In this document: in pieces, positions 5,067 through 54,560 of the stretch
Position numbering within the stretch: the stretch's first letter is position 1
Layout: every line of letters begins with the position of its first letter
Assembly (NCBI RefSeq): GCF_003054705.1
Contig: NZ_QAYX01000012.1
Location: 1 to 64,000, forward strand
Source: Opitutus sp. ER46
Lineage (GTDB): Bacteria; Verrucomicrobiota; Verrucomicrobiia; Opitutales; Opitutaceae
Direction: 5' to 3'
DNA: 64,000 nucleotides
Notes under the pieces: generated by a model
What the model was told of the DNA's origin: nothing
The model's input: only the letters and a program-made list of their open reading frames with translations
Database searches by the model: none
Translations under genes and position numbers: made by a program

Positions 5067-5074
5067 TGCCAGGC

Positions 5075-5170
5075 CCTCAATCCCTCAATCCCTCAATCCC
5101 TCAATCCCTCAATCCCTCAATCCCTCAATCCCTCAATCCCTCAATCCCTCAATCCCTCAATCCCTCAATC
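5075..5170 (+). repeat. Twelve tandem copies of CCTCAATC
   Basis: Exactly 12 uninterrupted 8-bp units, followed by CCTCGAGAG and purine-rich AAGAGGAAGAG sequence. The unit with its CTCGAGAG flank recurs once at about 45343-45357, inside the composite palindrome there. Perfect identity of the units suggests recent slippage expansion. The array sits 90 bases upstream of the MazG-like gene. Confidence 0.9.
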
Positions 5171-5260
5171 CCTCGAGAGTAAGAGGAAGAGGAAGAGAAA
5201 GAGTGAGACCGGGACCCGGGGGTTGCGCCGGGGCTGGGGAGGTGATGAGGTCCACGGGCA

Positions 5261-40189: not shown

Positions 40190-40390
40190 GGCCAGAGGGC
40201 AGATGTCGGAAGCCGGAAGCCGGAAGCCGGAGGCCAGAAGCCCGAGGCCGGAAGCCAGAGGCCGGAGGCCGGAAGCCAGAGGCCGGAGGGCGGAGGCCAG
40301 AAGACGGAGGCCCGAGGCCAGAAGCCGGGGCACGGAAGCCAGAAGCAGCCTGACGCCAGAAGCCGGATGTCGGACGTCAGACGTCGGATG
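40190..40390 (+). repeat. Degenerate GGAAGCC/GGAGGCC array
   Basis: About 25 imperfect units (GGAAGCCAGAGGCC style) follow the ClC gene. The array at 40790-41040 consists of the complementary words, so the two could pair across 400 bases. Confidence 0.75.
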
Positions 40391-40401
40391 CCGGACCCGC
40401 C

Positions 40402-40789: not shown

Positions 40790-41040
40790 CTCCGAGACCC
40801 TGGCTTCTGACTTCCGACGAGGGTAGGATGTCCTGAACCTCCGAAGGATAGCATCTCCTGAACCGACCTCCGGCTTGTCTCTGGCCTCGGGCTTCCGGCT
40901 TCAGGCTTCTGGCTTCCGACCTCCGACCTCCGGCCTCCGGCTTCAGGCTTCGGGCCTCCGACCTCCGGCTTCCGGCCTCCGGCCTCCGGCTTCAGGCTTC
41001 TGGCTTCCGACTTCCGGCCTCCGACATCAGGCTTCACCGA
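40790..41040 (+). repeat. Degenerate GGCTTCC/GGCCTCC array, inverse of 40190-40390
   Basis: About 25 imperfect units such as CTTCCGGCTTCAGGCTTCTG, the reverse complement class of the array at 40190. It ends 60 bases before the glycolipid operon start and must overlap or adjoin its promoter region. Confidence 0.75.
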
Positions 41041-41100
41041 ATCGTAACCGGAACGCCACGGTGTTGGGATCGACGTGTGGTTCACTGGCGGCGAAGCACC

Positions 41101-42267
41101 GTGAACATCGCGCTCGTCACCGAAACGTTCCCGCCGGAGGTCAATGGCGTGGCCATGACTTTTGGCGTGCTGGCGCGCGAGCTCGCCCGCCGCGGCCATG
41201 GCGTCACGGTCTACCGGCCCCGGCGGCCCGACCTGAAGCCGCCGCGCCCGGAGGACGGCTATGCGGAGGTGGCGCTGCCGGGCATGCCGATCCCCGGCTA
41301 TCCCCAGCTCCGGCTGGGGTTTCCGGCGCGTCGCCGGCTGTGCCGCCGCTGGGCGGCGGATCCGCCGGATCTGGTCCACGTGGTGACGGAGGGCCCGCTC
41401 GGGGCCTCGGCGGTGAGCGCCGCGCGCGAGCTGGGCGTGCCGGTCACTTCGAGCTTTCACACCAACTTTCACCGGTACACCGGCAGCTACGGCTTCGGGC
41501 TCTTGCACGGGCCGGTGCTGGCCTGGCTCCGCCGGGTGCACAACCGCACCCGCCGCACCTTCGCGCCAACGCCCGCGCTCGCGGCGGAGTTGCGCCGCGA
41601 GGGTTTTCGCGACGTCGCGGTGCTGTCGCGGGGCGTCGACACCTGGGACTTCCATCCGGCGCGACGCTCGCCGGAGTTGCGGCTCGAGTGGGGCGTCGAG
41701 GCCGACACGCCCGTGGTGCTGCACGTCGGCCGGATGGCGGCGGAGAAGAACTACGACCTGCTCTTTCGCGCGTATGCGGCGATGCGCGCGGCCAACCCGC
41801 GGCTGCGTTTCGTGCTCGCGGGCGAGGGGCCGCTCAAGGCCCGGCTCGAGCGCGAACACCCCGAGTGCATCTTCGCGGGCTTCTTTTCGCGCCGCGAAAT
41901 CGGCCGGTACTACGCGTCCGCCGATATCTACATTCACGCGAGCCGCACCGAGACGTTTGGCAATGTCCTCACCGAGGCGCTGGCCAGCGGGCTGGCGGTG
42001 GCCGGTTTCGATTACGCGGCGGCGCAGCAGTTCATCACCAATGGCGAGAACGGCCTCGTCGTGCCGCTGGAGCGGCCTGACGCCCTGATCGACGCGGCGG
42101 TGCTGCTGGCCACCGACGATCTGTTGCGTACGCAACTGCGCCGTCGGGCGCGCGCCGCGGTCGAGCCGCAGTCCTGGAAGCGCGTGGTGGCTCGCTTCGA
42201 AGCCGACCTTGCGGAGGCGGCGGGCCTCGCGCGGTCGGTCGCGCCGGCTGTTTCCGTTGCCCCATGA
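41101..42267 (+). CDS. GT4-family glycosyltransferase, probable lipid glycosyltransferase
   Basis: 388 residues from GTG 41101, giving VNIALVTETFPPEVNGVAMT, the normal start of this branch, which includes SqdX and the mannosyltransferase MgtA. GT-B fold: N-terminal acceptor domain with VTSSFHTNFHRYTGSYGF (about 118-135), and a C-terminal nucleotide-sugar domain with LHVGRMAAEKNYDLL (about 219-233), IFAGFFSRREIGRYYASADIYIHASRTETFGNVLTEALASG including the E-x7-E motif. Likely adds a sugar to diacylglycerol or a glycolipid at the inner membrane. First gene of a four-gene operon whose members overlap by 4 bases. Confidence 0.85.
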   Translation: MNIALVTETFPPEVNGVAMTFGVLARELARRGHGVTVYRPRRPDLKPPRPEDGYAEVALPGMPIPGYPQLRLGFPARRRLCRRWAADPPDLVHVVTEGPLGASAVSAARELGVPVTSSFHTNFHRYTGSYGFGLLHGPVLAWLRRVHNRTRRTFAPTPALAAELRREGFRDVAVLSRGVDTWDFHPARRSPELRLEWGVEADTPVVLHVGRMAAEKNYDLLFRAYAAMRAANPRLRFVLAGEGPLKARLEREHPECIFAGFFSRREIGRYYASADIYIHASRTETFGNVLTEALASGLAVAGFDYAAAQQFITNGENGLVVPLERPDALIDAAVLLATDDLLRTQLRRRARAAVEPQSWKRVVARFEADLAEAAGLARSVAPAVSVAP

Positions 42268-43412
42268 CCCCACGAATTCTCTACCTCACGGCCGGCTTCG
42301 GTGAAGGCCACAACGCGGCGGCGCGGGCGCTGGCTGACGCGACCGCCGAGCGTTTTGGCTCCGGCAGCGCGCCCATCCTGGACGCGTTTGCGGTGGCGCG
42401 GCCCCGGCTCAACCAGCACAGCCGGCGGTTCTACCTCCGACTCATCAACCAGGCGCCGCGCGCCTGGAGCGCGTTTTACCGCTGGCTCGATCGCTCGCCG
42501 CGCGCCGACCGGTACGTCACGCTGCTCCGGCGCGAACTCGACGTGCTGGCGGAGCGCATCCGCCGGGAGCGGCCGGTCGCACTCTGCAGCACGTATCCGG
42601 TGTATGGTTTCATGGTGGCCGAACTCCGACGCCGTGGCCTCGCGCTGCCGCCGCTGTTCACGGTCGTCACCGACTCGATCACCATCAACGGACTGTGGTG
42701 GCGCGCGCCAAGCGCCGGCTGGTTCGTGCCGAATGCGGACTCGGCCGTCGTGCTGGCCCGGGCGGGCGTCGGGCCGGTGCACACGCTCGGCTTCCCGGTG
42801 TCGCCCGTCTTTGCCGACGACGGCGCGCGCCTCCTGCGGCCAGACCCCGGTCCCGGCGTGCCACCGCGCATCCTCTACCTCGTGCACTCGGGCAACCGCG
42901 ACGCCTTCGCCACCGCGCGCCGGCTGCTCGCCGAGCCGGGCTGGGACGTCACCTGCGCCGTCGGACGCGACGAGGGCTTGCGCACGGCGCTGATGCGGCT
43001 GGCGGATGATCGCGTGCGTTCGACGCCGATCCTCGGGTGGACGCCCGAGGTGCCGCGGCTGCTGATGACGCACCACGTGGTGGTGAGCAAGGCGGGTGGC
43101 GCCACGACCCAGGAGGCGCTTGCGGCGGGTTGCCCGATGATCGTGAACCAGGTCGTGCCCGGGCAGGAGGAGGGCAACTCCGAGTTGCTGCGCCGGCACG
43201 GGATCGGGGCGTTGGCCACGACGCCCGACGCGGTCCACGCGGCGATTGCGCGGGCCTTTGCCGAGGGCGCGCGTGAGTGGCGTGGCTGGCGCGCGGCCGT
43301 CGACCGGCTGGCGCGCCCCGATGCGGCCCGCGCGATCGTAAACGCCATGCTCCTTGAAACCGCGCCGCCCGTGCGCAGCCGGCCCGAGCGCGTCGCCGCC
43401 CCGCTTTCATGA
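42264..43412 (+). CDS. MGDG-synthase-like glycosyltransferase (GT28)
   Basis: 382 residues. The N-terminal MGDG_synth-type domain begins RILYLTAGFGEGHNAAARALADA, with SGSAPILDAF and STYPVYGFMVAELR; this domain binds diacylglycerol. The C-terminal GT28 domain holds ILGWTPEVPRLLMTHHVVVSKAGGATTQEALAAGCPMIVNQVVPGQEEGNSELL. Related enzymes (UgtP, MGDG synthases, Agt) glycosylate diacylglycerol. No signal peptide; expected on the inner face of the cytoplasmic membrane. Starts within the stop of the GT4 gene (ATGA) and ends within the lipid-kinase start. Confidence 0.88.
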   Translation: MTPRILYLTAGFGEGHNAAARALADATAERFGSGSAPILDAFAVARPRLNQHSRRFYLRLINQAPRAWSAFYRWLDRSPRADRYVTLLRRELDVLAERIRRERPVALCSTYPVYGFMVAELRRRGLALPPLFTVVTDSITINGLWWRAPSAGWFVPNADSAVVLARAGVGPVHTLGFPVSPVFADDGARLLRPDPGPGVPPRILYLVHSGNRDAFATARRLLAEPGWDVTCAVGRDEGLRTALMRLADDRVRSTPILGWTPEVPRLLMTHHVVVSKAGGATTQEALAAGCPMIVNQVVPGQEEGNSELLRRHGIGALATTPDAVHAAIARAFAEGAREWRGWRAAVDRLARPDAARAIVNAMLLETAPPVRSRPERVAAPLS

Positions 43413-44353
43413 GGACACGTTTCATCGTCAACCTGCACTCGGGCAAGAACCGCGGCCGCACCGGGCTGCCGGACACCATTCGCGGCTTCATCCGGCGCCA
43501 CGCCCTCGACGGCGACGTGGCGATCACCGCCCACCGCGGCCACGCCACCGAGCTCGCGAGCGAGGCGGTCAGCCTGGGGTATGACCTCGTGGTGGCGGTC
43601 GGCGGCGACGGCACGATGAACGAAGTTGCGCAGGCCCTTGTGGGCACGCGTACGATCCTCGGCGTGGTGCCCTGCGGCTCCGGCAACGGCCTCGCGCTGC
43701 ACCTCGGGCTCCCGCGATCGATCTCTGATGCCCTCTGGTTGATCGGCTCCGGCAGCGCCCGGGCGGCCGCGATCGACACCGGGCTGGCGGATGACCACCC
43801 GTTCTTCAACGCGGCCGGGGTGGGGTTCGATGCGGAGATCAGCCAGCGCTTCAACGGGCTCAGGCGCCGCGGGCTGCCGGCCTACCTCCGCGTGGGCTGG
43901 AACGCGTTGCGGGACCGCGCGGCTGAGCGCTGCACCGTCATCGCGGAGTCCCGCCGCGAGCCGATCGATGCGCTCCTGATCACCGTCGCGAACTCCGACC
44001 AGTACGGGAACAACGCCCGCATCGCGCCCGGCGCCCTGGTCGACGACGGCGTGCTCAACCTCGTGGCTGTCCGCCGCACGGGCATCCTCGAACTCGCCTC
44101 GCTCCTGCCGCGGCTCTTCCTCGGCACCATCGACCGCAGCCCGCACGTCCGGCACCTCCGCTCCTCCTGGTTCGTAATCGAGCGCGGCGGTCCCGGCGTG
44201 CTCCACACCGACGGTGAGACGCACCCCACCGGCCAGACCGTCACGTTCTGCGTAAAACCCCGCAGCCTGCGCGTGCTCGTGCCGGCCGACTCGCCCCTGC
44301 CGCCCGCGCCCGCGGAGCCGGCCTGCCCCAACTTTGCCCTGCAATACCCATGA
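43409..44353 (+). CDS. Diacylglycerol/lipid kinase family protein (YegS/DgkB type)
   Basis: 314 residues. The nucleotide-binding motif GGDGTMNEVAQAL (about 67-79) and LGVVPCGSGNGLALHLGLP (about 89-107) define the family; FFNAAGVGFDAEISQRF follows, as usual. Phosphorylates diacylglycerol or a related lipid with ATP. Within this operon it could recycle surplus diacylglycerol to phosphatidate, opposing the phosphoesterase. Overlaps both neighbours by 4 bases. Confidence 0.88.
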   Translation: MRTRFIVNLHSGKNRGRTGLPDTIRGFIRRHALDGDVAITAHRGHATELASEAVSLGYDLVVAVGGDGTMNEVAQALVGTRTILGVVPCGSGNGLALHLGLPRSISDALWLIGSGSARAAAIDTGLADDHPFFNAAGVGFDAEISQRFNGLRRRGLPAYLRVGWNALRDRAAERCTVIAESRREPIDALLITVANSDQYGNNARIAPGALVDDGVLNLVAVRRTGILELASLLPRLFLGTIDRSPHVRHLRSSWFVIERGGPGVLHTDGETHPTGQTVTFCVKPRSLRVLVPADSPLPPAPAEPACPNFALQYP

Positions 44354-45159
44354 AACTCTCAGTGCGGACCGTCATCTTGTCCGACGTCCACCTCGGCACG
44401 CCGGACGCGAAGGTCGCGGAGGTGAATCATTTCCTGCGTCACACCCGCTGCGCGAAACTGATCCTGAACGGCGACATCATCGACGGCTGGCAGCTGCGGC
44501 GGGGCGGGCACTGGACGAATGGCCACACGCGCTTCGTGCGACTGGTGCTGAAGAAGATCGAGAAGCAGGGGACGGAGGTCGTGTACCTGCGCGGCAACCA
44601 CGACGACGTGCTGACCTCGCTGCTGCCGCTGGATTTTGCGGGGTTGCGCATCGTGGAGGAGCACGTGCACGAAGGAGCGGCGGGACGCTTCCTTGTGCTG
44701 CACGGGGACGTGTTCGACACCGTGACGAAGAACTTCGTTTTCCTCGCGCACCTGGGCGACTGGGGCTACCGCGCGCTGCTGCAGCTGAACCGGATCTACA
44801 ACCGCTGGCGGGCGTGGCGCGGGCTCGAGTACTGGTCGCTGAGCCGCGCGATCAAGGCGCGGGTCAAGGAGGCGGTGAATCACGTGTCACGGTTCGAGAC
44901 GCACATCGCGGAGTTGGCGCGACAGCGCGGCTGCGTTGGCGTGATGTGCGGCCACATCCACACCCCTGCCGACAAGATGATCGGCGAGGTGCGGTATTTG
45001 AACTCCGGCGACTGGGTCGAGTCGCTCACGGCCATCGTTGAGCATTGGAATGGCCGTTACGAACTGGTGACGTTCGCCGAGTTTGTCCGGAGTTGGCCGA
45101 TGCCGGACGAGGGTGAGACTGAGCCTGCCGAACCGGCTGCCGTCGCGGCAATGGAGTAG
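44350..45159 (+). CDS. PlcP/LpxH-type metallophosphoesterase
   Basis: 269 residues. Calcineurin-like metal site: ILSDVHLG (9-16), LNGDIIDGWQLRR (about 40-52), YLRGNHDDVL (about 79-88), LVLHGDVFD (about 117-125) and CGHIHTPA (about 199-206). Commonly annotated UDP-2,3-diacylglucosamine diphosphatase. The long helical insert (FLAHLGDWGYRALLQLNRIYNRWR, about 132-155) followed by LEYWSLSRAIKARVKEAVN, and GEVRYLNSGDWVESLTAIVEH, resembles PlcP, the phosphate-starvation phospholipase C of Sinorhizobium, more than LpxH. Location in a diacylglycerol glycosyltransferase operon beside pst supports this. Substrate still inferred. Confidence 0.85.
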   Translation: MKLSVRTVILSDVHLGTPDAKVAEVNHFLRHTRCAKLILNGDIIDGWQLRRGGHWTNGHTRFVRLVLKKIEKQGTEVVYLRGNHDDVLTSLLPLDFAGLRIVEEHVHEGAAGRFLVLHGDVFDTVTKNFVFLAHLGDWGYRALLQLNRIYNRWRAWRGLEYWSLSRAIKARVKEAVNHVSRFETHIAELARQRGCVGVMCGHIHTPADKMIGEVRYLNSGDWVESLTAIVEHWNGRYELVTFAEFVRSWPMPDEGETEPAEPAAVAAME

Positions 45160-45183: not shown

Positions 45184-45393
45184 TCTTTCTCTTACTCTTC
45201 CTCTTTCTCTCAATCCGTGAGCGCCGCGCGGGATGCGCGGCGCGAGAACGAGAACGAGAACGAGAACGAGAACGAGAACGAGAACGAGAACGAGAACGAG
45301 AACGAGAACCTTCCTGCTTCAGTTTTCGCGGAGCGAAAACTGCTCAATCCCTCGAGAGGAAGAGAAAGAGAAAGAGGAAGAGTAAGAGAAAGA
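45184..45393 (+). repeat. Composite palindrome with 27-bp perfect arms
   Basis: Pyrimidine arm 45184-45210 and purine arm 45367-45393 are exact reverse complements. Inside lie, in order, a perfect 9-bp GC hairpin (45221-45229 with 45235-45243), eleven tandem GAGAAC hexamers (45244-45309), a perfect 10-bp GTTTTCGC hairpin (45320-45329 with 45333-45342) and CTCAATCCCTCGAGAG. It separates the lipid operon from the porin gene and may act as terminator, attenuator or mobile repeat. Confidence 0.85.
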
Positions 45394-45545
45394 GGGGGAA
45401 GGCCCCTGGGGGGCGCGGGGGAGCTGAGGGGGACTGTTGCGGAGACGTCACCCCGGCGCCACGCGGCTGTAACACACGTGGGTGATAGTACGACCGACCG
45501 GTTGGGGGGCTGCCACCCACCGGCTAACAACCACCACTGCCAAGC

Positions 45546-46865
45546 ATGCCTACCCTCCGTTTCAAATGCCTCGCGCTCCTCACGGTGCTTGCCCTCACCG
45601 GCACGGCCGTCGCCCAGGACAGCGGACCGTTGATCGATCTGCTGGTCCGCAAGGGAATCGTCACCGACCAGGAGGCGGAAGAACTCCGCACCGAACTGGT
45701 CCGCGACTTCACCAACAACACCTCCGCCGGGAAGCTCAACCTGAGCTCCGCCCTCACCGAGGCCAAGCTCTCGGGCGACGTGCGCATCCGGCACCAGTAC
45801 GAGATGCAGGCGCCGGCCGTCGCGACCGGCGCGCCCACGGTGAAGAACGAGCGCACCCGCGAGCGCTTCCGCTTCCGGTTCAACGGCGACTTCGCGCTCC
45901 AGCGCGGCTGGACGACCGGCTTTGCCCTCGAGACCGGCCAGGCGGCCGACTCCGGCAACCAGACCTTCGGCGGCGCCAATGACGACTACTCGCTCTACCT
46001 GGCGCGCGCCTACATCGGCTGGGCGCCGACGCGCAATTTTTCCCTCGTGCTCGGCAAGCAGAAGAACCCGATCTACGCCACCGACCTGCGCTGGGACGGC
46101 GATATCAACCCGCAGGGAGCCAGCGAGGTGTACCGCCTTTATTATGGCGCCAAGGACACCCTCGAGTTCCGCGCCCTGCAGAACATCATGGAGGACCGCA
46201 ACGAGCGCGTGGCCGGCCCCGGCGGCCGTGACGCCTGGCTCTTCGAGCAGCAGGCCGTGTACACCCACTGGTTCGGCCGCGACAGCATCGGCAACGTCGT
46301 GAACAGCGTGGTGCTCGCCCCGGGCTTCGCCACCTACAACGCGTCCGGCATCGACACCGCCACCAACGAGACCCCCTTCAACGGCACGACTCGCTGGCTA
46401 CGGCTGGCAACCTTCGCCGGCGAGGTGAACTGGATGAACGTCGCAGGCGAGGGCACCAGCGTGAAGCTGTACTGGGATTCCTCTTACAACTTCGAGTCCG
46501 AGAACCGCGTGGCCAAGGCCTACGGGCTCAGCCTCAGCCGCTGGAAGGATGATCCCTTCGCCTGGCTCGTCGGCATCGGCTACGCCAAGGGCAGCGGCAA
46601 GACCATGGGCGACTACAGCGCCCGCATTGACTACCGCGAGATCGGCCTCGGCGCCGCGGACCCCAATACCAGCGATTCCGACTTCGCCTTCGGCAAGCTC
46701 AGCCAGCGCGGGTTCAAGGGCACCGTCGGTTACAACCTGACCGACTTCGCCACCCTCAACGCCACCTATTTCCACACCACCGCGATCCAGGACAACCTGA
46801 CCCACGCGCTGGCCAACCTCGACCGCTCGCAGCTCCTCCAGCTGGACCTCGTCCTGAAGTTCTGA
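45546..46865 (+). CDS. Outer-membrane porin, probably phosphate-related
   Basis: 439 residues with a signal peptide (MPTLRFKCLALLTVLALTGTAVAQ). After a short helical segment (LIDLLVRKGIVTDQEAEELRTEL, about 29-51), which is typical of putative porins in this group, a long run of amphipathic strands follows (GDVRIRHQYEMQ, RFRFRFNGDF, ARAYIGWAPTRNFSLVLGKQKNP and others), ending LQLDLVLKF with the C-terminal Phe of outer-membrane beta barrels. Immediately upstream of pstS (46-base gap), so a Pho-regulated channel for phosphate or organophosphates is likely. A CTGTAAC half-site at 45469 is a weak Pho-box candidate. Confidence 0.85.
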   Translation: MPTLRFKCLALLTVLALTGTAVAQDSGPLIDLLVRKGIVTDQEAEELRTELVRDFTNNTSAGKLNLSSALTEAKLSGDVRIRHQYEMQAPAVATGAPTVKNERTRERFRFRFNGDFALQRGWTTGFALETGQAADSGNQTFGGANDDYSLYLARAYIGWAPTRNFSLVLGKQKNPIYATDLRWDGDINPQGASEVYRLYYGAKDTLEFRALQNIMEDRNERVAGPGGRDAWLFEQQAVYTHWFGRDSIGNVVNSVVLAPGFATYNASGIDTATNETPFNGTTRWLRLATFAGEVNWMNVAGEGTSVKLYWDSSYNFESENRVAKAYGLSLSRWKDDPFAWLVGIGYAKGSGKTMGDYSARIDYREIGLGAADPNTSDSDFAFGKLSQRGFKGTVGYNLTDFATLNATYFHTTAIQDNLTHALANLDRSQLLQLDLVLKF

Positions 46866-46911: not shown

Positions 46912-47730
46912 ATGAAAAAGACGCTTCTCCTCCTGACTGCATTGCTCGCTGTCGCCGGGTCCGCCCGGGCCGACAACAAGCTCGTCATCAAAGGCTCGGA
47001 CACCCTCGGCGCGAAGCTCGTGCCGCAGCTGGCCGAAGCCTACAAGGCCGCCAATCCGGGCGTGTCGTTTGAAATCGCCGCCGAAGGCTCCACCACGGGC
47101 ATCGCGGCGATCATCGACGGCACTGCCAACATCGGGATGGCCAGCCGCCGCGCCAAGGCCACCGAAGTCTCGGCGGCGCAGGCCAAGGGCGTGACCATGA
47201 AGCCGACCATCGTCGCCTACGACGGCATCGGCGTCGTGGTGAACGCCAACAACCCGGTTACGAAGCTCACGCGGCGTCAGGTGGAGCAGATTTTCGCCGG
47301 TGACATCACCGACTGGTCCGCGGTCGGCGGCACCCCGGGCCGGATCTCGCTCTACACCCGCAACACGTCGTCCGGCACGTATTCGGACTTCAAGCAGCTC
47401 GCGATGAGCAACCGCGACTACGCCTCCTCCTCGCAGAAGATGGCGGGCAACGAGCAAATTGCGGCCGAGGTGGCGCGGAACCCGTCGGGCATCGGCTACG
47501 TGGGCCTCGCCTACATTCACGATCCAGGCATCAAGGTCGTCGCGATCGACGGGGCCGAGCCGACCCACGACTCCGTGCTGGCGCGCAAGTACCCGTTCGC
47601 GCGCCCCACGTTCTTCTACACCAACGGCGCGCCGACGGGTGAGGCCGCGAAGTTCATCGAGTTCGTGCACAGCGATGCGGGACGGGAAATCATGGAAAAG
47701 GTCGGGTTTGTCGCCCCGGCCAAGAGCTGA
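46912..47730 (+). CDS. pstS: Phosphate ABC transporter substrate-binding protein
   Basis: 272 residues with a signal peptide (MKKTLLLLTALLAVAGSARA). Binds inorganic phosphate in the periplasm. Motifs include IKGSDTLGAKLVPQLAEAY, AEGSTTGIAAIIDGTANIGMASR (phosphate-contacting Ser/Thr segment, about 59-81), VEQIFAGDITDWSAVGG and RNTSSGTYSDF. Length is as for PstS of the shorter PBP_like type. Followed by a terminator that should leave pstS more abundant than the downstream pst genes. Confidence 0.93.
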   Translation: MKKTLLLLTALLAVAGSARADNKLVIKGSDTLGAKLVPQLAEAYKAANPGVSFEIAAEGSTTGIAAIIDGTANIGMASRRAKATEVSAAQAKGVTMKPTIVAYDGIGVVVNANNPVTKLTRRQVEQIFAGDITDWSAVGGTPGRISLYTRNTSSGTYSDFKQLAMSNRDYASSSQKMAGNEQIAAEVARNPSGIGYVGLAYIHDPGIKVVAIDGAEPTHDSVLARKYPFARPTFFYTNGAPTGEAAKFIEFVHSDAGREIMEKVGFVAPAKS

Positions 47731-47817: not shown

Positions 47818-49425
47818 ATGAATGAGATCTCCACCGCTCCCGCTCCGGCGCCGAATCTGGCGCCCCGCCGGCGGCGTCGGCGGTTCCTCGGGCTGAGCGC
47901 GGACGACGCCATCAAGGCCTTCTTCGGCGGCAACGCCTTCGTGTCGGTCGTGGTGCTCACGCTGATCACGATCTTCCTCGTGCGGGAGGGCATCGGGTTT
48001 TTTGGACAGAACCACCAGAACCTGCAGGTCTATCGCCGCGCGGGGCTGGAGTATGTGGACATCATGCGCGCGCAGCTGGAGGACCACACTGCGTTGACGC
48101 GCTATCTCTCCGATCTGCGGGTGCGGGAGTTCCAGGCGTTGACCGAAGGGGAGAAGCTGACGCCGGAACAGGCGAACGCACGGCTGGAGGCCTTCGATAC
48201 CTTTGCGAACCAGTTCTCGGACACCGTGGTGCCGTTGCGCGGAATCGTCTCCGACCTCACGGAGCAGGCGACGGCATTGAAGGAGAAGTTCGTCGTGGCG
48301 GGTGACCGCGCCGAGGAGCGCGAGCAGCTGCTGGCGGAGGGCAAGAGCGAGGCCGCGGCGGCGGTGAAGGTCGACAAGGTGGACTTTGCCCACGAGCTGC
48401 AGCCGATCCTCGGGACGCTGCCGATGTATCGGGACAGCAACCGGGAGTTCGCCCAGGCGGTGACGGCGGCGGTGGCAAATCCGCCGACGCTGCCGCAGCC
48501 TGAACTGCAGGCGCGGATGACGCGGTTCCAGGAGCTGGCCCGCGAGTACGTGGCGGGCTTCCCTGCCATCGAGGCGCGCCTCGCGGCGTGGGACTACCGC
48601 AAGCAGGTGCCGGGCTGGCAGGCGTTCACGGCGTTCGTCTTCGGTCGCCAATGGCTTACCGCGAGTTTCTGGCAGGATTGGTATGGCGTGCTGCCGCTGT
48701 TCGTCGGCTCGCTGATGGTCTCGTTCGTGGCGCTGCTCATCGCGGTGCCGCTCGGGATCGGCGCGGCCATCTACGTGAACCAGATGGCGTCGCCGTGGGA
48801 GCAGCGGCTGATCAAGCCCGTGATCGAGTTCATCTCGGCGATCCCCTCGGTCGTGCTCGGCTTCTTCGGCATCGCGATTCTCGGTCAGGCGCTGCGCACG
48901 CTGTCGCAGCAGCCGTGGCTCTCCTGGGTGCCCGGTTTCCCGTACAGCGAGCGGCTCAACATCCTGACCGCGGGTTGCCTGCTGGCGCTGATCGCGGTGC
49001 CGACGATCTTCACGCTCGCGGAGGATGCGCTGAACAACGTGCCCCGCGCCTTCAAGGAGGCGTCCTTCGCCCTCGGCGCGTCACGGCTCCAGACCATCAT
49101 GCGGATCATCGTGCCGGCCGGGCTCTCCGGGCTGGTCTCGGCGGTGCTGCTCGGTTTCGGCCGCGTGATCGGCGAGACGATGGTGGTGCTGCTGTGCGCG
49201 GGTAACCGGATCGAGATTCCCGACTTCACTGCGGGCCTGGCGGTGGTCACGCAGCCGGTCCACACGATGACCGGGATCATCGCACAGGAGATGGGCGAGG
49301 TCGTGCGCGGGAGCATTCATTACCGCGCGCTCTTCGTCGTCGGCCTCGTGCTCTTCCTGCTCTCCCTCCTGATCAACTTTGCGGCGCAGAAAGTGGTGCG
49401 CCGTTACCGCATCTCGATCGGCTGA
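47818..49425 (+). CDS. pstC: Phosphate ABC transporter permease with large periplasmic insert
   Basis: 535 residues, against about 300 for usual PstC. Cytoplasmic basic N-terminus ([10 protein letters not shown]), first membrane helix about 42-60, then roughly 220 largely helical residues (about 65-285; [50 protein letters not shown] and others), then the permease core with five more helices. The core has [24 protein letters not shown] and the EAA-type loop [33 protein letters not shown]. Transport role is certain; the insert is unexplained and may contact PstS or sense a ligand. Two bases separate it from pstA. Confidence 0.9.
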
Positions 49426-49427
49426 CC

Positions 49428-50468
49428 ATGAGTGAACGTTCGCATGTCTTTCGTCGGCAAACCGGGGCCGCGCACCTCAAGGAACGGCTCTTCGGCTGGC
49501 TGTTGCGCGGCGTCACTTACCTCGTGCTGCTGTGCGGGGTGGGCGTGTTCGCGACGATCGTGGTGAAGGGCGCGCCGACGGTCTTCCGGAGCACACCGCC
49601 GTTCATCAACGTCGCCTTTCTGACCCAGGCGCCGGAGTCGCTCTACGTCTTTGAGTTCGAGGGGAAGAAGTACGAGCAGGGCGACCGGGAGCACCGGGCT
49701 TTCGTGACGCAGCATCCGGCGGCGGCGAAGGTGCGCACCGAGAGTTACGTGTACTCGGCGGGCGGCATCTTCCCGAACATCGTCGGCACGATCCTCCTCG
49801 TGCTGGGCTCGATGGCCATCGCTCTGACCCTCGGCGTCGCCGCGGCGATCTACCTCAGCGAGTACGCGAAGGACGGACGCTTCATCCGGTTCGTGCGGCT
49901 GGCGATTCTGAACCTCGCCGGCGTGCCCTCGATCGTGTTCGGCCTCTTCGGCTTCGGCATGTTCGTGGTGTTCTTCGGCTGGAACGTCTCGCTCCTGGCC
50001 GGCTGGTTCACCCTCGCGTTCATGGTCCTGCCGGTGGTGATCACGGCCAGCGAGGAGTCGCTCCGCGCCGTGCCGCGCGGCTTCCGCGAGGGCTCGCTCG
50101 CGCTGGGCGCCACCAAGTGGCAGACGATCCGTGGCAACGTGCTGCCCTACGCGCTGCCCGGCATCCTGACCTCCTCGATCCTCGGCATCGCCCGCGTCGC
50201 CGGCGAGACCGCGCCGATCATGTTCACCGCCGCGTATGTCGTCCGCGACAAGCTCCCCTGGGACGTCGCCAAGGTGACCGACTTCTTCTTTCAGGGCGTG
50301 ATGGCGCTGCCGTACCACATCTACGTCGTCAGTTCGAAGATCCCGCAGAACGAGTACACCGCCCGGGTGCAGTACGGCACGGCCTTTGTCTTCCTGGTGC
50401 TCGTCGCGGTGATCGCCGCCGCCTCGATCCTTTTCCGCAACCGGCTGCGCAAACGCTACCAATGGTAA
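49428..50468 (+). CDS. pstA: Phosphate ABC transporter permease
   Basis: 346 residues. First membrane helix about 25-44 ([18 protein letters not shown]), a periplasmic segment of about 60 residues (with [16 protein letters not shown]), then the permease core beginning [38 protein letters not shown] loop: [40 protein letters not shown], which docks on PstB. The end is basic ([10 protein letters not shown]). Slightly longer than usual PstA because of the periplasmic segment. Overlaps pstB by 7 bases. Confidence 0.92.
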
Positions 50469-51331
50469 CCGCCACCTTTTCCACGATGGACACCTCGACC
50501 GCCACCTCCCTGCTGCCGCCGCCGAGCCAGAGTGTGCCGCACCGCGACGTCGGTGTGCGCCACCGCGAGCCGGACCGGCCGTTGATCGAGATCGAGGACC
50601 TGGACTTCTACTACGGTGCGACGCAGGCGCTGCACCAGATCCGGCTGGGGATCGAGGACCACAAGGTCACCGCGTTCATCGGGCCCTCGGGCTGCGGCAA
50701 GTCGACGCTCCTCCGCTGCCTCAACCGGATGAACGACCTGATCGACGGCACGCGGATCGGCCAGGGCCGGATCAAGATTCACGGCGTGGACATCAACCAG
50801 CCGGACGTGGACGTCATCGAACTGCGGAAGCGGGTGGGCATGGTGTTCCAGAAGTCGAATCCCTTCCCAAAGTCGATTTACGAGAACGTGATTTACGGGC
50901 TCCGCCTGCAAGGCGTGCGCGACCGCGGCCGGCTCGACGAGATCGTGGAGAAGTCGCTGCGCGGCGCCGCGCTCTGGGACGAGGTGAAGGACCGCCTGCA
51001 TTCGAGCGGGCTGGGCCTCTCCGGCGGCCAGCAGCAGCGGCTGTGCATCGCGCGGGCGATCGCGGTGGAACCCGAGGTGATCCTGATGGACGAGCCCTGT
51101 TCGGCGCTGGATCCCGTGGCGACGGCGAAGATCGAGGAACTGATCCAGGAGCTGCGGCGGGACTACGCGATCGTGATCGTGACCCATAACATGCAGCAGG
51201 CGGCGCGCTGCTCGGACCGCACCGCCTTCTTCTATCTGGGCCGCCTGGTGGAATATGCAGAGACCCGGACTATCTTCACCAACCCAGCCAACCCGCAGAC
51301 CGAGGCGTACGTCTCCGGCCGGTTTGGCTGA
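50462..51331 (+). CDS. pstB: Phosphate ABC transporter ATP-binding protein
   Basis: 289 residues from ATG 50462; ATG 50486 (MDTSTATS) is an alternative. Hydrolyses ATP to drive PstCA. A 40-residue Ser/Pro-rich N-terminal extension precedes the ABC domain: Walker [10 protein letters not shown] (about 74-82), Q-loop [11 protein letters not shown], signature LSGGQQQR, Walker [14 protein letters not shown] and switch [17 protein letters not shown] and [11 protein letters not shown] segments are PstB-specific. The extension is unusual for a family of about 255 residues. Confidence 0.95.
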
Positions 51332-51356
51332 CCCCAGCCGGACGAGTCACCCGAAA

Positions 51357-52013
51357 ATGACGCACTACACGGAAGAGCTGAACAAGCTCAAGGAGAGCCT
51401 CCTGGCGATGGCCAGCCACGCCGAGTCGGCCGTGGCGCGCTCGATGCGTGCCCTGTCCGAACGCGACGACGCGATGGCACGCCAGGTGGAGGAGGACGAC
51501 GCCATTCTCGACCAGTTCGAGATCGAGATCGACGACACTGCCGTGCACCTGCTCGCGAAGGCGCCCCTGGCGACGGACCTGCGCTTGATCACGGTCGGGA
51601 TGAAGGTGTCGCAGAACCTCGAGCGGGTGGGCGACGAGGCGGTCACTATTGCCCGCCGCGCCGTGGAGCTGGCGACCGAGCCGCAGCTGAAGCCGTACGT
51701 GGACCTGCCGCGGATGGCGACGATGTCGCTGGAGATGCTGCGTGACGCGATCACCGCCTTCATCCACCGGAAGCCCGACATCGCCCGCACGGTGATTCCG
51801 CGGGACCACGACGTCGACGAACTCAACCGGCAGATCCACCGCGAGCTGGCGAGTTTCATGGTGGAGGATCCGGCCACGATCACCCGCAGCCTGAAGCTGA
51901 TGACGATTTCCAAGAGCCTGGAGCGGATCGCCGACCACGCCACGAACATCGCGGAGGAAGTGGTCTTCCTCTACGAGGCGAAGGACATCCGCCACGCCGC
52001 CAGCAAGGTATAG
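51357..52013 (+). CDS. phoU: Phosphate signalling regulator
   Basis: 218 residues from ATG 51357. Two PhoU three-helix repeats with the metal-binding E/D-x-x-x-D motifs: MKVSQNLERVGDEAVTIARRA (about 80-100) and LMTISKSLERIADHATNIAEEV (about 181-202). Couples Pst transporter activity to PhoR inhibition when phosphate is plentiful. Follows pstB by 25 bases in the expected pst-pho order. Confidence 0.93.
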   Translation: MTHYTEELNKLKESLLAMASHAESAVARSMRALSERDDAMARQVEEDDAILDQFEIEIDDTAVHLLAKAPLATDLRLITVGMKVSQNLERVGDEAVTIARRAVELATEPQLKPYVDLPRMATMSLEMLRDAITAFIHRKPDIARTVIPRDHDVDELNRQIHRELASFMVEDPATITRSLKLMTISKSLERIADHATNIAEEVVFLYEAKDIRHAASKV

Positions 52014-52088: not shown

Positions 52089-52775
52089 ATGAAACCGAAG
52101 ATACTCGTGGTCGACGACGAGCCCGACGCGCTCGAGGTCCTGGGCTTCAAACTGAAGGAGGCGGGCTACGCGCCCATCTTCGCCAAGGATGGCAGCCGCG
52201 CGATCACCGCGGCGCGCGATGAGCATCCCGACCTGATCGTGCTCGATCTCATGCTGCCCGAGGTCGACGGACTCGAAGTCTGCAAGGTGCTGCGGCGCGA
52301 CAACACCACCGCCGGGATTCCGATCGTGATGCTGACCGCGCGCGCGGCGGAGATGGACCGCGTGATCGGGCTCGAGCTCGGGGCCGACGACTACGTCACG
52401 AAACCCTTCAGCCCGCGCGAGCTGGTCCTGCGCATCAAGAAGCTCCTGGCGCGGGCGCCGGCGGCCGATACGGCGGCGGCGTTGATCCGGTTCGGCGATC
52501 TCGCGATCGATGTGCCGCGGCACGAGGTGCGGTGGCGGGACGAGCCGATCGCGCTGACCGCGACGGAGTTCAAGCTGCTGCAAGTGCTCGCCCAGCGACG
52601 CGGCCGCGTGCAGACGCGCGACCGGCTGTTGCAGGATGTGTGGGGTTACGAGAACCCGATCGACAGTCGGACGGTGGACACGCACATGCGCCGCCTGCGC
52701 GAGAAACTCGGCGACGCTGCCCAGTACCTGGAGACGATCCGCGGTGTCGGCTACCGCTTCATCGCGACCGAGTGA
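52089..52775 (+). CDS. phoB: Phosphate regulon response regulator
   Basis: 228 residues from MKPKILVVDDE (ATG 52089). Receiver with D9-D10, phosphoacceptor D53 in VLDLMLPEVDG, Thr in VMLTARA and Lys in YVTKPFSP. OmpR-type winged helix from about 130: LTATEFKLLQVLAQRRGRVQTRDRLLQDVWGY, SRTVDTHMRRLREKLG and the wing IRGVGYRFIA. Identified as PhoB by its place between phoU and phoR. Unlike in many genomes, it is separated from phoR by 561 bases of folded repeats. Confidence 0.9.
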   Translation: MKPKILVVDDEPDALEVLGFKLKEAGYAPIFAKDGSRAITAARDEHPDLIVLDLMLPEVDGLEVCKVLRRDNTTAGIPIVMLTARAAEMDRVIGLELGADDYVTKPFSPRELVLRIKKLLARAPAADTAAALIRFGDLAIDVPRHEVRWRDEPIALTATEFKLLQVLAQRRGRVQTRDRLLQDVWGYENPIDSRTVDTHMRRLREKLGDAAQYLETIRGVGYRFIATE

Positions 52776-53336: not shown

Positions 53337-54560
53337 GTGCTGACCCTCAACCTCATCCTCCTGATCGCGCTGGGCGCCTGCTACCTCGTGGCGCGCCGGC
53401 GGCAGCGTCGGTTGGTGGAGTCCGAGCAGCGGCGCGTGCGGGAGCTGGCGGCGCAAAAGGAGGCGTTCGAAGCGACGGAGCGAACCGAGCGCGCGCGGGT
53501 GGAGGCCGTCCTCGACGCCATGATCGAGGGCCTGGTGGTGCTCGATTCCGAGCGGCACATCGTCCTCGCGAACCGCGCGGCCGAGCTGATGTTCGGCTTC
53601 TCGCGCATGATGGCGGGCGGGATGTTGCTGGAGGCGATCCGTCACCACGAAGTGGACACCCTGGCGCGCCGCGCGCTCGCGGAGCCGAAGCCCATTGAGC
53701 ACGAAGTCCGCATCGAGCGGCCCGAAGCGCGCATCCTCCAGATCAGCGCCGTGGCGCTGCACGACCGCACCGGCGCGACCACGGGCGCGGTGCTGGTCTT
53801 TCACGACGTCACCCGGCTGCGGCGGCTGGAATCGGTGCGGCAGGATTTCGTTGCCAACGTGAGCCACGAACTGCGCACGCCGCTCTCGATGATCAAGAGT
53901 GCGGCGGAGACGCTGATGGACGGCGGCCGCGACGATCCGGCGATCACCGGGCGTTTCCTGGAGATCATCGACCGGCATGCGAGCCGGTTGACCGTGCTGC
54001 TCGACGACCTGCTGCTGCTCTCGCGGCTGGATTCCGGGCGCGTCGGCCTCGACCTCCGGCTGGTGAACGTGCGGACCGCGGTGCAGGAGTCGGTCGACGA
54101 CGCGCAGATCCTGGCGCAGGCGCGGAGCGTCACGCTGGCGAATCGCGTCGCCGGCGAACTGGTCGTGCAGGCGGATCCCGTGCGGTTGCGGCAGGTGCTC
54201 GGCAACCTCGTGGAGAACGCGATCAAGTACGGGCGCAACGGCGGCGCCGTGGAGGTCACGGGCCGGCGCGTGAGCTCGGCGATGGTCGAGATCGCGGTGC
54301 GCGATGACGGCCCGGGCATCCCGGTGGACGCGCAGCCGCGGATTTTCGAGCGGTTCTTCCGCGTGGACAAAGGCCGCTCGCGCGAACAGGGCGGCACCGG
54401 CCTCGGGCTCGCGATCGTGAAGAACGTCGTCCAGGCCCACGGCGGCGACGTGCGCGTCGAGAGCACGCCCGGCAAAGGCTCGACGTTTTTTGTCACGCTG
54501 CCGGCGACGGAGGTCGCGGGACAGACCAACGGTGTCGTCAAGCGTGGGGCAACCACGTAA
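53337..54560 (+). CDS. phoR: Phosphate regulon sensor histidine kinase
   Basis: 407 residues from GTG 53337. One N-terminal membrane helix (LNLILLIALGACYLVA, 4-19), then a coiled segment, a PAS domain (about 55-160; AMIEGLVVLDSERHIVLANRAAELMFG), the DHp box FVANVSHELRTPLSM with His 177, and an ATPase domain with QVLGNLVENAIKYG, DDGPGIPVDAQPRIFERFFRVDKGRSREQGGTGLGLAIVK. The lack of a periplasmic sensor loop fits PhoR, which responds via PstSCAB/PhoU. Its gene order makes phoB the partner. Confidence 0.9.
   Translation: MLTLNLILLIALGACYLVARRRQRRLVESEQRRVRELAAQKEAFEATERTERARVEAVLDAMIEGLVVLDSERHIVLANRAAELMFGFSRMMAGGMLLEAIRHHEVDTLARRALAEPKPIEHEVRIERPEARILQISAVALHDRTGATTGAVLVFHDVTRLRRLESVRQDFVANVSHELRTPLSMIKSAAETLMDGGRDDPAITGRFLEIIDRHASRLTVLLDDLLLLSRLDSGRVGLDLRLVNVRTAVQESVDDAQILAQARSVTLANRVAGELVVQADPVRLRQVLGNLVENAIKYGRNGGAVEVTGRRVSSAMVEIAVRDDGPGIPVDAQPRIFERFFRVDKGRSREQGGTGLGLAIVKNVVQAHGGDVRVESTPGKGSTFFVTLPATEVAGQTNGVVKRGATT

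Follow-up and report, generated by a model that had tools for sequence, protein, structure and literature searches.

We analysed a stretch of 64,000 nucleotides from Opitutus sp. ER46 (NCBI RefSeq assembly GCF_003054705.1, contig NZ_QAYX01000012.1, positions 1 to 64,000 of the forward strand; hereafter the window), and in particular a cassette of four genes that a preliminary description had read as a lipid-remodelling operon next to phosphate-transport genes. That description had reported four overlapping open reading frames, and these were confirmed on the + strand at the following positions, with each of the three junctions formed by a 4-base ATGA overlap:

41101..42267, + strand: GT4 glycosyltransferase (Agt/MgtA/SqdX-like), GTG start; PF13439/PF00534
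42264..43412, + strand: GT28 glycosyltransferase (MGDG_synth family); PF06925, 43.7 bits, cut-off 25
43409..44353, + strand: YegS/Rv2252/BmrU-type lipid kinase; DAGK_cat PF00781 and YegS_C PF19279
44350..45159, + strand: PlcP-type metallophosphoesterase; Metallophos PF00149, tree position and identities, under the LpxH cut-off

Domain searches agreed with the families that had been proposed (Glyco_transf_4/Glycos_transf_1, MGDG_synth, DAGK_cat with YegS_C, and Metallophos). On this basis the GT4 enzyme probably transfers the first sugar onto diacylglycerol, the GT28 enzyme probably attaches a further sugar or produces a second glycolipid, and the kinase probably converts diacylglycerol to phosphatidate, while the metallophosphoesterase is a predicted phospholipase C for membrane phospholipids. 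We consider it highly probable that the cassette serves a PhoB-controlled replacement of phospholipids by glycolipids during phosphate starvation, of the known PlcP-Agt type, extended by a second glycosyltransferase and a lipid kinase.

The coupling of the four genes extends well beyond the window. An in-frame start at a 4-base overlap is present at 28 of 28 GT4/GT28 junctions, 23 of 24 GT28/kinase junctions and 23 of 27 kinase/PlcP junctions in the loci examined, window included, counts that report the availability of a start codon and not its use. A gene-neighbourhood survey covered 36 Opitutaceae-type loci, the locus groups having been assigned by us from titles and kinship codes (code f1 was taken as Opitutaceae via named contigs); many loci end at contig edges, and the duplicates L066, L067, L076, L082 and L096 were left out. 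PlcP is flanked by GT4, GT28 and kinase genes in 23 of these loci, by GT4 and GT28 in seven, by GT4 and kinase in two and by other sets in four. The arrangement is thus beyond chance, as indicated by the conserved overlap starts and by the 23 loci with all three partners, and the cassette, far from being confined to this genome, proved to be widespread in the family.

The preliminary description also held that the cassette adjoins a porin-pstSCAB-phoU-phoBR cluster. This cluster does lie downstream, with the scores of the PhoB-like and PhoR-like proteins falling under the equivalog cut-offs. The features of the two promoters and of the downstream genes are:

41028..41071, + strand: predicted Pho box of the cassette, CTTCACC GAAT CGTAACC GGAA CGCCACG, 29 bases before the cassette
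45431..45474, + strand: predicted Pho box before porin-pst, found with the cassette-derived matrix (26.2 bits), 71 bases before porin-pst
45546..46865, + strand: putative porin (Porin_5) heading the pst genes, over the Pfam cut-off
46912..47730, + strand: pstS, TIGR02136 over cut-off
47818..49425, + strand: pstC, TIGR02138 over cut-off
49428..50468, + strand: pstA, TIGR00974 over cut-off
50564..51331, + strand: pstB, TIGR00972 over cut-off, start picked by us within a longer open reading frame
51354..52013, + strand: phoU, TIGR02135 over cut-off, start picked in the same way
52089..52775, + strand: phoB-like response regulator, best NCBIfam match TIGR02154 PhoB (249.3 bits, cut-off 296.2), start likewise picked within a longer open reading frame
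53337..54560, + strand: phoR-like sensor kinase, PhoR TIGR02966 298.2 bits (cut-off 334.2), PnpS 372.8 bits (cut-off 400)

The guess that phosphate controls the cassette gains support from a direct-repeat box common to the cassette and porin-pst promoters. Expectation maximisation on 28 Opitutaceae-type cassette promoters (200 bases before GT4, 150 starts) returned one dominant motif with a score of 282.8, compared with 96.4-105.8 in three shuffled sets (40 starts each). Aligned over 24 cassettes, the motif reads roughly TT-nC-nAAT-CGTAACC-nnnn-CGCCACG-nnnn-CGCCACA, that is, direct repeats with the 11-base spacing expected of PhoB. The published Pho box consensus, CTGTCATNNNNCTGTCAT, has the same repeat spacing (PMC8528852). 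A 44-column matrix was built from these cassettes without L039, L043, L068 and L069, whose sites are weak or displaced. With the window also left out, the matrix scored position 41028 at 34.6 bits and position 45431 at 26.2 bits, against 4.1 bits for the next-best place on both strands of the 64 kb and a peak of 15.6 bits in 20 shuffled windows. Genome-wide, a pattern of the motif matched at 41034 with no mismatch, at 45437 with one and at 31 other places all with two, where the zero and the one are not independent results because the pattern was drawn up after the window sites had been seen; a reversed control pattern matched at 16 places.

Promoters of pst genes had no part in building the matrix, and they therefore provide a genuine cross-test. 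They were located through pstC, since the porin was a poor probe (6 of 57 genomes), which yielded 27 loci from relatives; without L220, which is cut by its contig, 22 belong to the window's family and four lie outside it. A site of 10.8-31.9 bits precedes porin/pstS in 21 of the 22 family genomes when the genome in question is left out of the matrix, a procedure that drops the same genome only and leaves close relatives in place. This site is the top place in 20 and the second in L219 (23.0 bits, with 26.0 elsewhere), and in 17 of the 21 it scores above the maximum of the shuffled windows. The sites of L221, L227, L228 and L230 (10.8-14.2 bits) fall under that maximum and rest on their position. 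The single miss in the family is L236 (1.9 bits), the site was missed in all four loci outside the family, and at 20 non-cassette kinase loci the cassette matrix reaches at most -2.6 bits. Based on the box shared between the cassette and the pst promoters of the window and its family, we predict that the cassette is probably under PhoB control.

A generic PhoB matrix had ranked the same place first before the window GT4 gene, at 5.9 bits (p=0.38), and was replaced by the de novo motif. Given this lack of significance at the cassette, the box probably represents a lineage-specific form of the Pho box. Further high-scoring matches outside the cassette and pst promoters (L033, L070, L219 and others) may mark other phosphate-regulon genes. 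Tandem repeats lie around the boxes: a 7-base minisatellite (GGCTTCC, 40885-41036) reaches up to the cassette Pho box, an array of reverse-complement-like units lies further upstream (40207-40395), and a perfect (CGAGAA)11 array (45243-45309) and an AGAGAA array (45355-45395) lie between plcP and the porin promoter.

The phosphoesterase shares 48% identity with the PlcP of Pseudomonas aeruginosa, 41-43% with that of Sinorhizobium meliloti and 26% with Escherichia coli LpxH; the two PlcPs are 46.6% identical to each other. Both PlcP references came from plasmid-collection records and were identified by their gene surroundings. The S. meliloti reference adjoins acyl-homoserine lactone synthase and LuxR-type genes, surroundings that fit the plcP locus SMc00171. 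In the P. aeruginosa record, plcP overlaps by 4 bases a downstream glycosyltransferase gene with GT4 domains; the plcP-agt1 order has been described for this species, along with 46% identity between its PlcP and that of S. meliloti (PMC8528852). The motif that had been named as PlcP-like is present, reading GEVRYLNSGDWVES in the window, GVDYLNCGDWVES in P. aeruginosa PlcP and GIRYINTGDWVES in S. meliloti PlcP. As had been suggested, the protein groups with PlcPs and apart from LpxH: in a maximum-likelihood tree of 56 rows, one branch (100/99) separates 48 PlcP-side rows from eight on the LpxH side, namely E. coli, betaproteobacterial and Bacteroidota LpxH-type proteins, and the Verrucomicrobiota and Bacteroidota rows on the PlcP side form one group (100/99). 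The metal-binding motifs DxH, GD, GNHD, HGD and GHIH are kept in a 25-row alignment, in which D12, H14, G41, D42, G82-D85, H118, G119 and G201-H204 are invariant and D120 occurs in at least 90% of rows.

The phosphoesterase could instead be an LpxH, producing lipid X for lipid A. It belongs to the same fold family, and it is the sole match of the LpxH model TIGR01854 in its own genome at E up to 1, but this match scores 24.8-24.9 bits, far under the cut-off of 190.35, and the tree places the protein elsewhere. A search for a separate lpxH found no LpxH over the cut-off in the genome; an LpxI domain is present (143.4 bits, cut-off 25), and lipid A should therefore not need the phosphoesterase. 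LpxI occurs in 79 of 87 genomes of the order and PlcP in 36 of 57 genomes, own genome included in both counts, and three Pseudomonadota genomes hold an over-cut-off LpxH beside a PlcP-type protein. A part for the enzyme in lipid A synthesis is thus unlikely, and its identification as LpxH, which the model score, the tree split and the presence of LpxI led us to reject, is already largely refuted and in our view extremely improbable.

The GT4 gene is linked to plcP in the operon, and the best NCBIfam matches of its product are lipid glycosyltransferases of two kinds, both under cut-off. For the GT28 protein, the nearest solved structures are MGDG synthase 1 and a processive diacylglycerol beta-glucosyltransferase, and its score against the diglucosyl-diacylglycerol synthase equivalog NF010135 was 115.5 bits, under the cut-off of 500. 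The two kinds of GT4 match would also suit a constitutive or differently regulated pathway for envelope glycolipids, in which the phosphoesterase dephosphorylates an intermediate such as phosphatidate or cytidine diphosphate-diacylglycerol opposite the kinase, with no bulk breakdown of phospholipids; the overlap between the kinase and phosphoesterase genes, possible at 23 of the 27 junctions, fits such a pairing as well. Expression independent of phosphate is argued against by the box common with porin-pst, and the phosphoesterase is about as near to both PlcPs as those two are to each other. We regard this pathway as quite improbable.

The kinase scores 128.5 bits against TIGR00147 (cut-off 118.65), a broad subfamily that is the only NCBIfam model passed among those matched, and its nearest structures are of YegS. 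In an alignment of 27 Opitutaceae cassette kinases, every sequence has GGDGTxNE and PCGSGNGL; HTDGE occurs in 26, and L045 has HVDGE instead. Another lipid, for example a sphingoid base or other lipid alcohol, could be the substrate, so that the operon would alter a second lipid class. Such a substrate would be in keeping with the breadth of the one subfamily model passed and with PCGSGNGL, where YegS reads PLGTANDF. The GSGN within it may resemble sphingosine kinases. Against this stand the conserved GGDGTxNE and HTDGE, and partner enzymes that act on diacylglycerol in known systems. We consider another substrate unlikely; it could in any case be compatible with the rest of the glycolipid-replacement model.

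At least one kinase match was found in 36 of the 57 genomes, a second copy elsewhere in 20 of the 22 genomes with a cassette kinase (C15:76746-77645 in the window's genome), and a copy in 10 of 11 family genomes without PlcP. In a quick tree of 50 kinase rows, 23 of 27 cassette kinases formed one group (SH-aLRT support 96) and 16 of 20 non-cassette kinases another (88); the window kinase is among the four unplaced cassette rows, and its nearest neighbours by path are cassette kinases. Recruitment of a duplicate into the operon is the likeliest origin of the cassette kinase. It is possible, if somewhat short of probable, that this dedicated duplicate places breakdown, two glycosylations and re-phosphorylation in fixed proportion under one PhoB promoter, as a built-in diacylglycerol buffer that would set the extent of membrane conversion. 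The available parts of the literature searched yielded no account of a circuit of this kind in the PlcP-Agt pathway.

Neighbourhoods in other lineages suggest how the cassette may have been assembled. GT4 alone accompanies PlcP in 7 of 10 loci from other families of the order and in 12 of 17 other Verrucomicrobiota loci, and in 43 Bacteroidota loci a PF13528-type glycosyltransferase gene follows plcP in 38, joined by a kinase in two. The GT4-PlcP pair therefore looks ancestral in the phylum, with GT28 and kinase as additions in Opitutaceae. Genes of the pst/pho set lie within about 7.5 kb of plcP at 5 of 36 Opitutaceae-type, 1 of 10 other-family and 7 of 17 other Verrucomicrobiota loci (13 of 63 in total), and at none of 43 Bacteroidota and 5 Pseudomonadota loci, many of which end at contig edges. 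Their placement varies: pstB-phoU-phoB-phoR is upstream of the cassette in L037 and L038, pst genes are downstream in the window and L044, the order in L054 is pstS-GT4-plcP-phoB-phoR-pst, and phoB-phoR are divergent in L090. A phoU-like gene (28-36% identity) was also seen downstream of plcP in the Verrucomicrobiota loci L086, L087, L089 and L093.

GT4 and PlcP occur together across the 57 genomes, own genome included: 34 have both, two have PlcP only, none has GT4 only and 21 have neither (GT4 at E up to 1e-60, PlcP at E up to 1e-5; Fisher p about 1e-13, uncorrected for relatedness or incomplete genomes). Co-occurrence of pstC and PlcP is weaker (27 both, nine PlcP only, seven pstC only, 14 neither) and was not used as evidence. 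The PlcP-only genomes are G054 and G019, in which plcP has an internal stop; at this locus (L064, G019:C190 near 76000) no kinase was found in the cassette, and decay or an assembly error may be responsible. In L260 (G033:C324:14200-18000), a GT4-kinase pair lies on a different contig from plcP. Elsewhere in the window, a perfect 8-base tandem repeat, CCCTCAAT, runs for 12.6 copies at 5074-5174.

Taking these results together, we propose the following sequence of events, in which the activities, sugars and acceptors at the steps after the DNA box are predicted from protein families. When phosphate is scarce, PhoB would be activated, bind the direct-repeat box at 41028-41071 and switch on the four cassette genes together with porin-pst. 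PlcP would then cleave membrane phospholipids into diacylglycerol and a phosphoalcohol, and the GT4 enzyme would put a first sugar on the diacylglycerol to give a monoglycosyl lipid. The GT28 enzyme would add another sugar, giving a diglycosyl lipid, or make a second glycolipid. The kinase would return excess diacylglycerol to phosphatidate, which would limit its build-up and keep some phospholipid synthesis going.

Several observations weigh against this proposal. The GT4 protein is only 32% identical to P. aeruginosa Agt1 over 320 columns and passes no NCBIfam cut-off among the 25 of 32 matches listed. We know of no characterised PlcP within the Verrucomicrobiota-Bacteroidota group of the tree, the tree program flags long branches meeting (the Thioclava row above all), and the predicted phosphoesterase fold (mean predicted local distance difference test score 80.3) matches LpxH structures best, a result explained by the shared superfamily, so that the fold does not separate PlcP from LpxH. 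As for regulation, the motif site is weak or displaced in the four of 28 cassettes omitted from the matrix, and the generic PhoB matrix reached p <=0.05 in only 9 of 51 GT4 promoters, with the window site no better than shuffles. No PlcP was found in 7 of 26 same-genus relatives, several of them incomplete genomes, and neither expression nor lipid data came to light for this lineage. Finally, a kinase opposing PlcP in one operon looks wasteful. In Pseudomonas putida, low phosphate is reported to enrich a diacylglycerol kinase (DagK) along with PlcP (PMC5082522), so that the presence of a kinase in a remodelling pathway is less surprising; the kinase noted in the preliminary description is indeed part of the set, and its association with PlcP has this precedent.

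In the papers cited here, phosphate-saving membranes are described mainly in Proteobacteria and marine bacteria, and a complete PhoB-controlled version in Opitutaceae, if true, would mean that the strategy reaches a further phylum. The family-specific Pho box offers a means of mapping the phosphate regulon of these genomes, and the coupled kinase makes diacylglycerol handling testable. The statement that no such operon had been described in the phylum held in part. A PlcP homologue in a verrucomicrobium single-cell genome has already been mentioned (PMC4796936), and verrucomicrobial methanotrophs have been reported to be without PlcP (PMC9239053); the portions of the literature searched yielded no operon of this kind, and no verrucomicrobial plcP operon, Pho box or pathway at work in the phylum.

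In Proteobacteria, plcP lies beside agt and is phosphate-responsive or accompanied by Pho boxes (PMC8528852, PMC4796936). The closest likeness is with plcP-agt1 of P. aeruginosa, where agt2 lies elsewhere: besides the 48% identity of the PlcPs, a GT4 gene is in the same operon and a predicted Pho box precedes it (PMC8528852). The window differs in having GT4 first and PlcP last with GT28 and a lipid kinase between them, in the distance of its GT4 from Agt1 and in a box that departs from the consensus quoted above. The S. meliloti PlcP belongs to the same clade and has the same motifs, whereas no glycosyltransferase is annotated within 4 kb of plcP in its record, the gene table of which is incomplete. 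Marine plcP neighbourhoods of types 1-6 likewise combine plcP with glycosyltransferases, some with Pho boxes, and in the parts of that study available to us no four-gene GT4-GT28-kinase-PlcP set was found described (PMC4796936). Bacteroidota have a sister-group PlcP with an adjoining glycosyltransferase at most loci, as in the window, and a phosphate-induced PlcP and glycosyltransferase have been reported from Flavobacterium johnsoniae (PMC8115612); unlike the window, the Bacteroidota loci have a glycosyltransferase of the PF13528 family, PlcP comes first and no pst/pho genes were seen within about 7.5 kb, many of these loci being cut by contig ends. PlcP-Agt remodelling is thus already known in Proteobacteria, and what is new here is its four-gene coupled form, the spread of this form in Opitutaceae and the box that it shares with pst.

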